Source: Magnetococcales bacterium
Lineage (GTDB): Bacteria > Pseudomonadota > Magnetococcia > Magnetococcales > UBA8363
NCBI GenBank assembly: GCA_015660855.1
Contig: JACSDG010000026.1
Span: 1-40,233, forward strand
Reading direction: 5' to 3'
DNA length: 40,233 nucleotides
How positions within the stretch are numbered: the stretch's first letter is position 1; each line of letters opens with the position of its first letter. A model generated the notes under the pieces. It made no database searches, had not been told where the DNA came from, and was given only the letters and a program-made list of their open reading frames with translations. Below are positions 2,367 to 19,899 of this stretch, piece by piece. The translations under genes and the position numbers were made by a program.

Positions 2367-3329
2367 ATGATTATCGTCACCGGCGGAGCTGGATTTATTG
2401 GCTCCAACCTTATCGCCAGCCTCAATCAAATGGGACGTACCAACATTCTGGTGGTGGACAATTTGGAGAAAGGCGATAAATTTTTAAACCTGCGCAATCT
2501 CCACTTTGCCGATTATCTCGACAAACGCGAGTTTCGCCAGGCCCTACTTGGGGATCGTTATAAAAATATCCCCTTCAGTGCTATTTTTCACCAGGGTGCC
2601 TGTTCCGATACCATGGAGTACAATGGCCTTTACATGATGGATAATAATTATTCCTACTCCAAGGATTTGTTCCACTTTGCCGTTGCCAAGAAGATTCCCT
2701 TCGTCTACGCCTCCTCCGCCGCCACCTACGGGTCCTCCACCACCTTTGCCGAACATCCCGACAACGAAAAGCCGCTGAATATCTACGGGTACTCCAAGCT
2801 TCTCTTCGACCGCTACGTTCAACGCAACATCACCAACGCACGCAGCACCGTGGTGGGACTGCGCTATTTTAATGTTTACGGCCCGCGTGAAAACCATAAG
2901 GGACGCATGGCCTCCATGGTCCACCAACTCCACGCCCAAATCCAACAAACCGGCCATGCCCGTCTGTTCACAGGGTCGGGCGGCTACGGCGATGGCGAAC
3001 AACGCCGTGATTTTATCCACGCCCTTGATGTCGCCCGAATCAACATTAAACTTGCCGATTACCCCTCTCCCATCCAAGGTATCTTCAACATTGGCACCGG
3101 CATCAGCCGCAGTTTTAACGCCATCGTCGAAAACCTTTATAAAGCCATGGAACGCCCCCCGGAAAAAACCAACTATATCCCCATGCCTGAAGGTCTGGCC
3201 GCCAAATTTCAAAATTACACCCAAGCCGACATCGCCATCCTGCGAAGCATCCCAGGGCTATCCTTTGAACCCATGACCCTGGAACAAGGCATCGCCGCCT
3301 TTGTCCAGGCCAAGAAAGAGGGGCTTTGA
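2367..3329 (+). CDS. hldD: ADP-L-glycero-D-manno-heptose 6-epimerase
   Basis: Cytoplasmic NADP-dependent epimerase that converts ADP-D-glycero- to ADP-L-glycero-beta-D-manno-heptose, the donor for the LPS inner core. The protein (320 aa) is an extended short-chain dehydrogenase: nucleotide-binding GGAGFIGSN at residues 6-14, YASSAATYG near 114-122 with the catalytic Ser, and the YxxxK pair Tyr140/Lys144 in NIYGYSKLLFDRY. LRYFNVYGPRE and the C-terminal substrate region also fit HldD. Start ATG 2367 is preceded by AGAGGT at good spacing. It stands alone here; 5' heptose genes are not in the window. It implies a heptose-containing LPS. Confidence 0.95.
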   Translation: MIIVTGGAGFIGSNLIASLNQMGRTNILVVDNLEKGDKFLNLRNLHFADYLDKREFRQALLGDRYKNIPFSAIFHQGACSDTMEYNGLYMMDNNYSYSKDLFHFAVAKKIPFVYASSAATYGSSTTFAEHPDNEKPLNIYGYSKLLFDRYVQRNITNARSTVVGLRYFNVYGPRENHKGRMASMVHQLHAQIQQTGHARLFTGSGGYGDGEQRRDFIHALDVARINIKLADYPSPIQGIFNIGTGISRSFNAIVENLYKAMERPPEKTNYIPMPEGLAAKFQNYTQADIAILRSIPGLSFEPMTLEQGIAAFVQAKKEGL

Positions 3330-3344
3330 CCTCCCAAAACGACC

Positions 3345-3511
3345 CAGGGTTAATTTGTTCTGGGCTAATTCACATTAATAATCGGGCTGTTACAGCAATT
3401 TCTAATCGAATTTGGAGTAAACAACAAACAAAACAATTAGTTACGATTGTTTTGTTCTTTTATCGATTTGAGTAAAAACAATAACTTACAAGACAGAACA
3501 AATTAATCCTG
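3345..3511. mobile_element. 167-bp miniature inverted-repeat element with 10-bp target duplication
   Basis: Seen directly: the left end (3345-3362) and the reverse complement of the right end (3494-3511) match at 17 of 18 positions; both ends start CAGG and share TTAATTTGTTCTG. The identical 10-mer CAAAACGACC sits immediately outside both ends (3335-3344 and 3512-3521), exactly as a target-site duplication should. The interior is AT-rich, contains no ORF, and has a perfect 11-bp central inverted repeat (3427-3437 and 3446-3456, 8-nt loop). This is the anatomy of a non-autonomous DNA transposon mobilised by an outside transposase. CAGG ends and an 8-10 bp duplication recall ISAs1-type elements, but that assignment is only a suggestion. 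Confidence 0.85.
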
Positions 3512-3550
3512 CAAAACGACCAGCCGAACAGGCAAAATCCGCAAAATCTC

Positions 3551-3762
3551 TTAGTGCGTGCTGACATTCAATAATTTACTTACACCCCCATGGAAAACTG
3601 ACTCATCGTCAAGAACATGATGCCCTTCGGGCAAAAACCAAAACCTTGGAGGCTCCGCCTTCAAACCGCAGCACGGGGGAGAACCTCCCCCCGGACCCCC
3701 GCAATACTTTTAAAGAAAAAAAGGCGGGGGAACCGAACGGTTACAATGTCAACACGCCCTAA
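3551..3762 (+). repeat. 212-bp hairpin-rich miniature element, most complete copy of a dispersed family
   Basis: The left end (3551-3568) and the reverse complement of the right end (3745-3762) match at 16 of 18 positions and share GTGNTGACATT-type sequence. A TA dinucleotide sits at both borders (3552-3553 and 3760-3761), as for elements that target TA. Between the ends lie three hairpins: GCCC-TTC-GGGC (3622-3632), GGAGGC-TCC-GCCTTC (3648-3662, one G-T pair) and GGGGGA-GAACC-TCCCCC (3675-3691), then an A-run and GGCGGGGG. Parts recur at 11211, 19789, 35920, 40131 and inverted at 38336 and 2300. No credible gene lies inside. It occupies the space between convergent hldD and marR. Confidence 0.75.
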
Positions 3763-3796: not shown

Positions 3797-4303
3797 CTAT
3801 TCCCGATCACCATGGAGAGGGTTGAGCGTCAGCTTGCCCAGCGTTTGCGTCACCCGTTCAATTTCTTCCGCAGACACCGTGTTTGTAATCCACCCCCCCA
3901 CTTCCAGGCGAATGGACTGCAACGCCTGCTCAACCACCGGAATGGCGGCTGGAGTCAGACGGACCGGCTTGACACGCCGATCGGTGCGGGTTGTGGAACG
4001 GGTGACGAAAGCACGTTCCTGTAGTTGCTGTAATATTTTTGTCAACCCCCCCGAGGTGATCAACAAGGATTGCTGTAGCTGCGACGGAGTCAACTCGTGG
4101 GGAAATGGGGAACGACGCAAACTCGATAAAACATCAAATTCCGCCGGACTCAAACCATAACGCTCCATAACCCGGAAAGCCTGCCCCAAAAGAATACCGT
4201 GCGCACGATGCAACGTGTGGAAAAATGGCGTCAAAAGGGGATCAAAAGATTCTGGCCAATTGTCTCGATGCTGTTCAATAACCCGCAAAAGTTCCGAATC
4301 CAT
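3797..4303 (-). CDS. MarR-family transcriptional regulator
   Basis: A 168-aa cytoplasmic winged-helix regulator of the MarR type, which normally binds a palindrome as a dimer and is released by small hydrophobic ligands. The order helix-SPAEFDVLSSLRRS, then LTPSQLQQSLLITSGGLTKILQQL (recognition helix), then the wing TRTDRRVKPVRLT is typical. ATG 4303 is chosen: it has GGAG six bases upstream, and a sigma-70-like promoter lies at 4334-4362, which would place the alternative GTG at 4345 upstream of the transcription start. It is divergent from the efflux operon at 4419, so the likely job is ligand-controlled repression of that operon and of itself. Confidence 0.85.
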   Translation of the reverse strand: MDSELLRVIEQHRDNWPESFDPLLTPFFHTLHRAHGILLGQAFRVMERYGLSPAEFDVLSSLRRSPFPHELTPSQLQQSLLITSGGLTKILQQLQERAFVTRSTTRTDRRVKPVRLTPAAIPVVEQALQSIRLEVGGWITNTVSAEEIERVTQTLGKLTLNPLHGDRE

Positions 4304-4333
4304 GATGGCTCCATTGGGCAGGGGTGTGGGAAA

Positions 4334-4362
4334 AATATCTTGCACATGGGCTGGGAAGTCAA
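4334..4362 (-). promoter_or_regulatory. Sigma-70-like promoter for the MarR gene
   Basis: On the minus strand, TTGACT (4362-4357) is followed after exactly 17 bases by GATATT (4339-4334). These match the -35 and -10 consensus at 5/6 and 4/6. The predicted start is near 4327, giving a leader of about 24 bases before the ATG at 4303. Confidence 0.6.
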
Positions 4363-5865: not shown

Positions 5866-6948
5866 ATGAAAGTACTTAGAAATTATATAATAATACTGTT
5901 GGCATGGATTGTGAGCGGCCTGCCCGGTTTCGTCCGTGCGGCCCCCCCCACCAAGGAAGACAAGGCGGTTTTGAGTGTCACCGTGGTCCATCCCCTCCTG
6001 GAACAATGGCCGCAAACCGTGCTGGCATCGGGGGGGATTCATCCCTGGCAGGAAGCGGTGGTGGCCTCCCAGATTGGCGGGTTGGCGATTGCTTCCCTCT
6101 CGGCAGACGTGGGCAGCGAGGTCAAACAGGGCGATGAACTCATCCAGCTCGCCGATGCCACCGTCAAAGCGGCGATGGCATTGCAACGGGCCAATGTGGC
6201 ACGGGCCAGGGCAGGTTTGGCCCTGGCCAAGGCCAACGGTGATCGGGCACGCTCGGTAAAAGGTTCCGGAGCCTTGTCCGATCAGCAGGTGACCCAATAT
6301 CTCCTGGGAGAGAAAACGGCCCAGGCCGACCTGGAAGCGGCCCAGGCCACCCTGGAACTGGAAGAGGTCCGGCTGCGCCAAACCCGTATTCTGGCCGCCG
6401 ACGACGGTGTCATCTCGTCGCGCAGTGCCTCCCTGGGGGCGGTGGTGCAGGTGGGCAGCGAATTGTTTCGCCTGATCCGGCAATCGCGTCTGGAATGGCG
6501 GGCCGAACTGACCTCGGCACAATGGCTCCAGGTCAAACCGGGACAACAGGCGCGACTCAACCTTTCCAATGGAAAAACCATTCAGGCCACCCTGCGTCAG
6601 ATCGCCCCGACCCAGGATCCCAATACCCGCAAAAGCATGGCCTATTTTGATCTGCCCAAGGATCCCTGGCTTCAGGCGGGAATGTTTGCCCAAGGGGAAA
6701 TTCATCTGGGTAACGAAAAAGTTTTCACCCTGCCCCAGTCGGCCATCCTTTTCAGCGACGGTTTTTCCTATATTTTTGAATTGTCCGGAAAAGATCGGGT
6801 GGTACGGCGCAAGGTCACGGTGTCACAGCGGCAGGCGGATCGTGTGGCCATACCCTCCGGCCTTGATGAAACAACCTCTGCAGTATCCACGGGGGGGGCT
6901 TTTCTCAAGGATGGCGACCGGGTTTTGCTCACGGAGGTGAAACCGTGA
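5866..6948 (+). CDS. RND efflux periplasmic adaptor (membrane fusion protein)
   Basis: Periplasmic adaptor joining the inner-membrane RND pump to the outer-membrane channel (360 aa). Signal-peptide-like N-terminus (residues 1-26, ending VRA-AP). Then a biotinyl-lipoyl half motif (ASGGIHPWQEAVVASQIGGLAIA), a helical hairpin (about 95-160) rich in Ala, the second lipoyl half (RILAADDGVISSRSASLGAVVQVG) and beta-barrel and membrane-proximal domains. Start ATG 5866 has GGAGAG upstream. Its end overlaps the pump start by four bases (GTGA), implying translational coupling. Substrate cannot be told from sequence. Confidence 0.88.
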   Translation: MKVLRNYIIILLAWIVSGLPGFVRAAPPTKEDKAVLSVTVVHPLLEQWPQTVLASGGIHPWQEAVVASQIGGLAIASLSADVGSEVKQGDELIQLADATVKAAMALQRANVARARAGLALAKANGDRARSVKGSGALSDQQVTQYLLGEKTAQADLEAAQATLELEEVRLRQTRILAADDGVISSRSASLGAVVQVGSELFRLIRQSRLEWRAELTSAQWLQVKPGQQARLNLSNGKTIQATLRQIAPTQDPNTRKSMAYFDLPKDPWLQAGMFAQGEIHLGNEKVFTLPQSAILFSDGFSYIFELSGKDRVVRRKVTVSQRQADRVAIPSGLDETTSAVSTGGAFLKDGDRVLLTEVKP

Positions 6949-9936
6949 ATCTGTCTTCCCTTTCCATCCGGCATCCCGTCCCGGCCATCCTGCTGTTTGT
7001 GCTGTTGACCTTGTTGGGAATAACCTCTTTCAAGGGATTGGGAATACAAAATTTTCCCGACATCGAGGTTCCAGCCATCACCATCATGGCCACCCTCGAA
7101 GGAGCGGCCCCCCCCCAATTGGAAACCGAGGTGGCACGCAAGATTGAAGATGCCGTGGCCTCCCTGGGAGAGGTGGACCACATTCGCACCACCCTGACCG
7201 ACAGCACGGTTTCCATCGTCGTGGAATTTGCCATCGACAAGAACGCCGATGTGGCCCTCAACGAGGTACGCAATGCCGTTGACGCCATCCGCACCGACCT
7301 GCCCCAGGATTTGACCGCGCCGGTCATTTCCAAAAAGACGACCACCGGCGGCGTCATGATCGCCTTTACCATCCGCTCCGAAGTCCTGGATGAAGGCGAA
7401 CTTTCCTGGTTGGTGGACAACGACATCGCCAAGGCCATGCTGACCGTGCCCGGTGTGGGCAGGTTCAGTCGCATGGGCGGGATCGACCGGGAAATTCAGG
7501 TGGATCTGGATCCGGTACGGATGCGTTCCTTGAATATCACCGCCTCCGATGTGTCCCGTCTGCTACGGCAAGTTCGCAAAGATTCTCCCGGGGGGCGCGG
7601 TGACATTGCCGGCGAAGTGCAATCGATACGAACCCTGGCCGCCCCCGAATCCCTGGATGATTTACGCACCTTGGACATTCCACTGCCGGGTGGGCGAACC
7701 ATACCGTTGGCAGAAATCGCCACCATCACCGATGGCAAGGCGCAACCAAGCAGTATTGCTCTGCTCAACGGCGAACGGATGGTAGGGTTTGAACTGACCC
7801 GTTCCAAAGGGTTCAGCGAGGTTTCGGTGGCCCAGGAGGCTTGCCCCCGCCCTGGACAATTACACAGGATCCATGGAATTGCTCTACGAGGGGGCGGCCC
7901 TGGCCATTCTGGTTGTCTGGTGGTTTTTACGCGATGGTCGGGCGACACTGGTTTCGGCGGCCGCCTTGCCGCTGTCCATCATTCCCACCTTTTTCATCAT
8001 GAAACTGGCCCATTTCAGCCTGGATACGCTGACCTTGTTGGCCTTGGCCCTGGTGGTAGGCATCCTGGTGGATGACGCCATTGTGGAGGTGGAAAATATT
8101 GTTCGTCACCTTAAAATGGGCAAAACCCCCTATCAAGCCGCCATGGAGGCCGCCGATGAAATTGGTATGGCGGTCATTGCCACCACGCTGACCCTGGTTG
8201 CGGTGTTTTTACCCACAGCCTTCATGGGGGGAATTCCTGGCAAATTTTTTCGCCCCTTTGGCATGACTTCGGTGGCAGCCATCCTTGCATCTCTGGTCGT
8301 TGCCCGCCTGCTGACACCCATGATGGCGGCCTATATATTACGCCCCGACTCCCGTGAATATCGACAGAGTGGTTGGCAAAGGGTGTATCTTAAAATGGTC
8401 ACCTCCTGCCTCAACCATCCACGTCTGACCCTGTTGGCTTCGCTGCTGTTTTTTGCCGGTTCCCTGTCTTTGGCTCCCCTCCTTCCCTCCGGTTTTGTAC
8501 CGGCGGCGGATCGCAGTCAAACCCTCGTCAATCTGGAATTGCCTCCGGGATCCTCTCTTGACGATACCCTGGAAATATCCCGACAAGCCACCAACATCAT
8601 CCGAGGAATTCCCGAGGTCATCCGGGTTTACGGAGCCGTCGGTTCGGCGGCCAACTCCGAGGGGGGACCTTTGGGAGGGGGAGCCAGCGGCGATGTGCGC
8701 AAAGCAACTTTGATCGTCGTACTCAAGGATCGCCGCGAGCGTGACAAAAAACAACCCCAGGTTGAAGATGAACTGCGCAACCAGTTAAAATTTCTCCCTG
8801 GGATTCGTTTTTCCATTTCCTCCCATGGCCCAGGAGTCAAGCTGACTTTGGTTTTGGCCAGCAACGATTCTTTTGCCCTCAGCAAGGTAGTCAATGCCGT
8901 AGAGAAAGAATCGCGCACCTTGCAGGGAATCGGAAACGTCTTTTCCAACGCCTCGATGGAACGCCCCGAAATCCACATTGTCCCCGATTTTGCCAAAGCG
9001 GCCGATCTTGGGGTTTCGAGTGATATTATTGCGCAAGCGGTGCGCGTGGCTACCGCCGGAGATTTCAAGGTGCAACTGGCCAAACTCAACCTGACGGAAC
9101 GCCAGGTTCCCATACGTGTCCGCCTGGATCCCAGGGTACGGCACGACCTGGCAGCCATTCGGCAGTTGCCCATCGCCTCCCGCAATGGTGTCATCCCCCT
9201 GGAGGCCATTGCCACAGTTGAAATGAACAGCGGAGCCACCCAAATTGATCGTTTGGATCGTATGCGCCGTACCAGCATTGACATTGAATTGGGGCAACGG
9301 GTTCTGGGCGAACTCCTGGGGGAAGTCAATCGCCTGCCCGTCATGCAAAAACTTCCCCCCGAAGTCCATCGGCCCCCGGATGGCGAGGCCCAACGGATGA
9401 AAGAATTGTTTGGCAGTTTTGCCGGAGCCATGGCCATGGGGGTGCTGTGCATCTACATTGTCCTGGTACTGTTGTTTCATGATTTTTTGCAACCGGTGAC
9501 CATCCTGGCCGCCTTGCCTTTATCCCTGGGGGGGGCCTTTGTTTCGCTGTTGATCACCCACAACTCGTTTTCCATGCCGGCGGTGATCGGTATTTTGATG
9601 CTCATGGGAATTGTCACCAAAAATTCCATTTTATTGGTGGAATACGCGGTGGTCGCCCGGAGAGAAAGGGGATTGGAGCGGCGTGCGGCCCTTCTGGATG
9701 CCTGTCACAAACGGGCCAGACCCATTGTCATGACCACCATCGCCATGGGGGCTGGGATGTTGCCTGTAGCCCTGGGCATCGGTGCCGAACCCAGCTTTCG
9801 CTCTCCCATGGCCATTGTGGTTATCGGTGGCTTGATCACCTCCACCTTTCTTTCCCTGCTGGTGATCCCGGTCATCTATGGCTATGTGGATGATCTGTTG
9901 CAATTTGGGAAAAAAATGTTTACCAAAAATCGTTGA
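6945..9936 (+). pseudogene. RND efflux pump (AcrB/HAE-1 type), broken by a frameshift with missing sequence
   Basis: Inner-membrane proton-driven drug exporter of the AcrB superfamily, in two frames. Residues 1 to about 297 (6945-7833) give TM1 and the porter region (RHPVPAILLFVLLT, FPDIEVP). The rest (from about 7840; ORF 7873-9936, 687 aa) gives TM2 onward, with LVDDAIVEVENIVRH carrying the TM4 Asp pair, and MGIVTKNSILLVEYA in TM10. At the junction GFSEVSVAQE jumps to LAPALDNYTGSMELLYEGA, so about 20-30 residues usually found here are absent as well as the frame being lost. The combined length of about 990 against the usual 1030 agrees. Start GTG 6945 has GGAGGT upstream. Most likely inactive, unless the break is an assembly error at the C-rich junction. 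Confidence 0.8.
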
Positions 9937-19777: not shown

Positions 19778-19788
19778 AAAATCTGATC

Positions 19789-19899
19789 TGCCTCCAAACC
19801 GCCGCACGGGGGGATGATCCCCACCTTAACCCCCACAATAATTTCAACCTTAAAAAAAGGGGGGGGACTGAATGGTTACATCGTCACTGACCCACCCCA
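19789..19899 (+). repeat. Dispersed hairpin repeat, left-truncated copy
   Basis: CTCCAAACCGCCGCACGGGGG, then CCCCCACAATAATTT, an A-run, GGGGGGACTGAATGGTTAC and a degraded GTCACTGACCC end follow the same order as 3655-3760. The left third is missing, and the nuclease gene at 19777 begins where it would be. The copy separates the nuclease gene from the end of the signalling operon. Confidence 0.65.

Follow-up and report, generated by a model that had tools for sequence, protein, structure and literature searches.

The element downstream of the epimerase gene

The window analyzed here is a stretch of 40,233 nt from a Magnetococcales bacterium (GCA_015660855.1, contig JACSDG010000026.1, positions 1-40,233, forward strand). 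Within it, a gene of the NAD-dependent epimerase family (2367-3329, + strand; Pfam PF01370) and a convergent gene for a MarR-family regulator (3797-4345, - strand; Pfam PF12802) lie on either side of, and outside, a short repeat-bounded interval. This interval opens with the 10-bp sequence CAAAACGACC at 3335-3344, which recurs as an exact direct repeat at 3512-3521. The two copies enclose an element of 167 bp (3345-3511) that begins 15 bases past the epimerase stop codon, contains no gene, and has a G+C content of 30.5%, against 53.2% for the window. Both of its ends are 18-bp terminal inverted repeats: CAGGGTTAATTTGTTCTG on the left (3345-3362, + strand), a motif that also bounds ISAs1-type insertion sequences (ISs) in relatives, and CAGGATTAATTTGTTCTG on the right (3494-3511, - strand, given as the reverse complement), which matches the same end motif. 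The element also contains a perfect inverted repeat at 3427-3456, with 11-bp arms at 3427-3437 and 3446-3456.

An earlier, sequence-only reading had described this interval as a miniature transposon with 17/18 terminal repeats directly adjoining a perfect 10-bp duplication, and these details were confirmed to the base. The terminal repeats are identical at 17 of 18 positions, the two copies of the duplication have 100% identity, and zero bases separate repeats from duplication on either side. The left end starts with CAGGG and the right end with CAGGA (one mismatch). When up to three mismatches were allowed, the end motif occurred at two sites in the window, namely, the two ends of the element (expected number 0.05; none of 100 shuffles reached two). 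A structure scan for 18-bp inverted repeats with up to three mismatches, a perfect 8-bp direct repeat immediately outside them, and a span of up to 600 bases likewise returned a single site in the window, whereas 60 dinucleotide shuffles gave no such site.

The same reading had stated that the window lacks a transposase. Inspection by eye of the six-frame translation of the 167-bp element revealed no transposase-like frame, and Pfam searches found no transposase domain in nine ORFs of the window's first 11 kb. A search for the ISAs1-family transposase had no match in the whole genome of this strain (4.5 Mb, 238 contigs, 97.8% complete). The statement therefore stands genome-wide for the ISAs1 family and, for other families, extends to those nine ORFs.

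A host sequence with a regulatory or structural role and only an outward resemblance to a transposon, for example a hairpin or terminator in the epimerase or marR-like transcripts, would fit the location just past a stop codon and between convergent genes, as well as the internal 11-bp hairpin and the folding of a single strand of the element, which was far better than that of shuffles (z -5.6). However, the fold score takes in the terminal repeats, no terminator or promoter was called inside the element, no Rfam family matched it, and no match was found in seven same-genus relatives. Moreover, a host sequence of this type leaves the flanking duplication without a place, and we consider this explanation extremely improbable. 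A secondary effect of the element on transcript ends is possible.

The DNA following the epimerase gene (position 3329 onward) differs from that of the same-genus relatives (L281-L287), indicating a rearrangement at this spot. In a comparison aimed at an empty site, the DNA downstream of the element was unmatched after the epimerase gene in all seven of these relatives, within loci that reach only ~1.5 kb beyond the query. Several of them continue past the epimerase gene with one kind of gene, which appears heptosyltransferase-like by its motif. With the perfect duplication as its sole basis, a fairly recent insertion is plausible.

Elements with the same ends in related genomes

Across 48 genomes of the order, we searched for a degenerate end pattern, CASGRNNAATTTGTTC, with the reversed pattern as a control. 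The pattern had 106 matches in 15 of the 48 genomes, and the control had one. In the high-copy genomes, nearly all matches are located ~40-130 bases from a contig end, as is typical of a repeat that has interrupted an assembly. Ends were read in G037 (all 46), G006 (12), G044 (17), and the sister species G001 (14). Those in G037 comprise 23 of type CAGGGTGAATTTGTTCCA and 23 of type CACGGTAAATTTGTTCTC, with 23 left and 23 right ends. Here, an exact 10-mer flank is common to the two ends of 12 left-right pairs (chance expectation 0.0005), while flank lengths of 8, 9, 11, 12, and 13 bases gave no pair and those of 6 and 7 bases gave one pair each. Partners of the 11 of 23 left ends that stayed unpaired may have been lost from the draft assemblies. 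Flank-sharing pairs were also found in G006 (two), G044 (three, one of which shares 11 bp), and G001 (one IS pair and two pairs of miniature elements).

The ISs in these genomes were recognized by pairing their ends through the flanks; no single contig spanned one completely with both motif and duplication. At one locus, in G134, a full-length transposase ORF is accompanied by a good right end, and our script called neither a left end nor a duplication. Because most IS copies break off at contig ends, routine annotation of these drafts would tend to miss them.

As for the prediction that the genome would hold other copies with different 10-bp duplications, no other intact copy was found in the strain's own genome, and the copies with different duplications were found elsewhere: two in G001, one in G028, and one in Nitrosomonas. 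The miniature element of G001 is also 167 bp long, has the same end motif, and is flanked by the duplications GACTTGGCTT and CATCCTGATG. In an ungapped comparison, its interior and that of the window copy are identical at 64 of 131 positions, whereas 2000 shuffles gave a mean of 40 and a maximum of 55. One copy, on contig C231 of G001, has two different flanks, which we read as an assembly join. The element in G028 is 176 bp long with the duplication AAACCCCATG; G028 also gave the single partial match, besides the window itself, when the whole element was searched against the strain's own genome and 60 relatives. The Nitrosomonas element is 183 bp long with the duplication GTTGAATGAA, and the same insertion is present in two MAGs (L019 and L053), the only two of 36 stretches from a genome-wide exact search that have an end pair and an exact duplication. 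Its interior has no similarity to, and cannot be aligned with, that of the window element.

The copies in G001 also bear on whether the interval could be the remnant of a full IS that shrank in place by internal deletion and was never mobile as a 167-bp unit. In favor of such decay, the strain has only one intact copy, and decayed IS pieces are present in the same genome (see below). However, the G001 element has the same length, an alignable interior, and several flanks, including two pairs that share 10 bp, and no stretch of transposase is visible by eye in a six-frame translation of the window copy. The equal length, alignable interior, and several flanks in G001 indicate that the 167-bp unit itself moved, and decay in place is very unlikely.

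Miniature elements with the same ends also occur in other lineages (L319 and L320 in Candidatus Magnetobacterium casense MYR-1; L328 in a Nitrosomonas MAG). Those of MYR-1 are 185 and 182 bp long and have duplications of 9 bp, not 10. A third candidate end pair in MYR-1 has no exact duplication.

The transposase at the shared ends

A 16-bp end motif is common to the window element and the ISs in relatives of the same order. In G036, an ISAs1-family transposase (NF033564, 1.1e-36) has its stop codon just before the right end, and, by eye, G001 and G037 show transposase C-termini and ends that fit this arrangement. A left-end piece in G037 (L187, G037:C380) encodes, in one frame, a DruA domain (PF14236, 2.2e-25) followed by DDE_Tnp_1_assoc (PF13808, 4.9e-12). 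In G001, the duplication ATCGACTGGA (one-side reading) links two contigs, one showing a DruA-like start and the other an ISAs1-type end. By its sequence, the transposase at these ends is assigned to the ISAs1 family. Since the whole IS lies on no single contig, its fusion with DruA is established for the N-terminal part only. The full IS with the same ends that the sequence-only reading had called for is present in the same genus and order as flank-paired pieces with 10-bp duplications, and no complete transposase was found in the strain's own genome.

According to a published account, ISAs1-family ISs have ends of 14-22 bp starting with CAGGG and generate 10-bp duplications (PMC11946415). The window element agrees in its CAGGG start, in the length of its repeats (18 bp at both ends), and in its 10-bp duplication. 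It differs in having no transposase, and, past CAGGG, its end sequence belongs to a subgroup with a DruA domain added to the transposase. A canonical ISAs1 element is present intact in G005, of the same genus (L130, G005:C194 1210-2625); it is 1416 bp long and has perfect 16-bp ends, CAGGGCAATCGCATTT, and a 10-bp duplication, ACTGGTTTTG.

The sharing between the window element and the ISs is limited to the terminal 16-18 bp, as might be found if the match were coincidental and a transposase of another family were the mover. However, two independent features agree, namely, the end motif (106 matches versus 1 in the control) and the exact 10-bp length of the duplication, and the published ISAs1 account reports the same CAGGG start and duplication length. 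A coincidence is hardly credible on this evidence. The window element is very probably a non-autonomous miniature element (MITE) of an ISAs1-family IS whose transposase bears an N-terminal DruA (DUF4338) domain. It is short and gene-free, has inverted repeats and a duplication, and occurs in multiple copies in relatives, and pieces of ISs with an ISAs1-family transposase carry its CAGGG ends and 10-bp duplication. The description as a miniature non-autonomous transposon was thereby borne out by the exact anatomy, by the copies elsewhere with other duplications, and by the ISs with the same ends in relatives.

In the transposase piece of L187, the ISAs1-type domain is preceded by a fused DruA (DUF4338) domain that also matches Mom weakly. 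DUF4338 is described as a GNAT-like domain (PMC10853773), and our search for literature pairing DruA with ISAs1 found none. With DruA as a family query, we obtained 14 matches, one of which is the IS left end on G037:C380. None of the loci from this query has such an end pair, and the top two matches are DruA genes of other kinds. Short peptides from the IS ends had no Pfam and no plasmid match, and a scan of viral contigs with the transposase found no relative. Plasmid matches to the transposase all had <60% identity, and the best of these (Thiodictyon) lacks such ends.

Proposed mobilization of the element and remnants in the host genome

Neither a second intact copy of the element nor a complete transposase of the parent IS was found in the strain's own genome. 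When one or two mismatches were allowed, the end motif occurred at two further sites in this genome (contigs C226 and C180), both close to contig ends. Another 11 of the 15 own-genome matches, those with three mismatches, were put down to chance because the reversed control gave five. C226 and C180 have the same sequence inside the end, with C226 a shorter second copy of the decayed right end in C180. In C180, this sequence extends further, and its opposite strand encodes the peptide GKSVAQVMQKLNKNTRMVFDYLKMTENSYANSVC, corresponding to a transposase C-terminus, which stops just short of the end motif. On contig C22, a weaker, decayed left end, CAGGGTGATTTTATTCTA, precedes the beginning of a DruA-type protein. 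We read these three sites as decayed pieces of the parent IS. This strain may no longer have the supplier of the transposase, or the 238-contig assembly may have lost it.

The shared ends and the duplication length suggest that an ISAs1-type transposase moved the window copy in trans. The element would keep just the ends that the transposase recognizes, CAGGRTTAATTTGTTCTG, with A+T-rich filler between them. A transposase produced elsewhere would have moved it and joined it to a 10-base staggered cut between the epimerase and marR-like genes, and gap repair would then have left CAAAACGACC on either side. Comparison by eye revealed no likeness between its interior and those of the ISs. Since its interior resembles neither the ISs nor the Nitrosomonas element, an internal deletion of the IS is unsupported as its origin.

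The element is ordinary mobile DNA, previously unlisted, of a known kind of MITE. A report on MITEPye1 of Paracoccus yeei describes an IS-derived bacterial MITE with ends of the IS1182 family (PMC11578231). Like the window element, MITEPye1 is short, gene-free, foldable, intergenic, and low in copy number, with IS-like ends and direct repeats; it differs in having IS1182-family rather than ISAs1-family ends. The literature passages on ISAs1 and MITEs that we consulted describe no ISAs1-type MITE. Searches for literature on Magnetococc with miniature inverted-repeat, and on magnetotactic with insertion sequences and MITE, found none. In the present case, two independent marks connect a gene-free repeat with its source transposase, and CASGRNNAATTTGTTC together with a 10-bp duplication provides a clean mark for annotating this IS and its MITEs in several lineages. 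A bolder and unlikely extension would be that a distinct ISAs1 subgroup moves the MITE, that its fused DruA/Mom-like domain, with an acetyltransferase fold, aids end recognition or modifies the joined DNA, and that these ends spread among Magnetobacterium (MYR-1), Nitrosomonas, and the order of the window by repeated transfer.

Other repeats were observed in this genome. The ISAs1-type IS remnants in C22 (L116), C180 (L005), and C226 (L004) stop at the same terminus of a GTAACC repeat, and one ISAs1-type IS end sits 14 bases within a GTAACC repeat; each of the two seems to have inserted into the other. At ~3640-3744 and ~19780-19879, the window carries a second dispersed element, whose ends, GTAACCRTTCAGTCCCCC, are sharp and whose copies lie behind different flanks. 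A full copy of 125 bp elsewhere in the genome (L084 1527-1651) shows inverted ends together with a perfect 8-bp duplication, CTTCCATC, and the element looks like another MITE. Furthermore, two overlapping ORFs in different frames at 6945-9936 of the window match consecutive parts of an AcrB-type efflux pump (profile positions 2-297 and 337-1020) and are likely a frameshifted pump gene.
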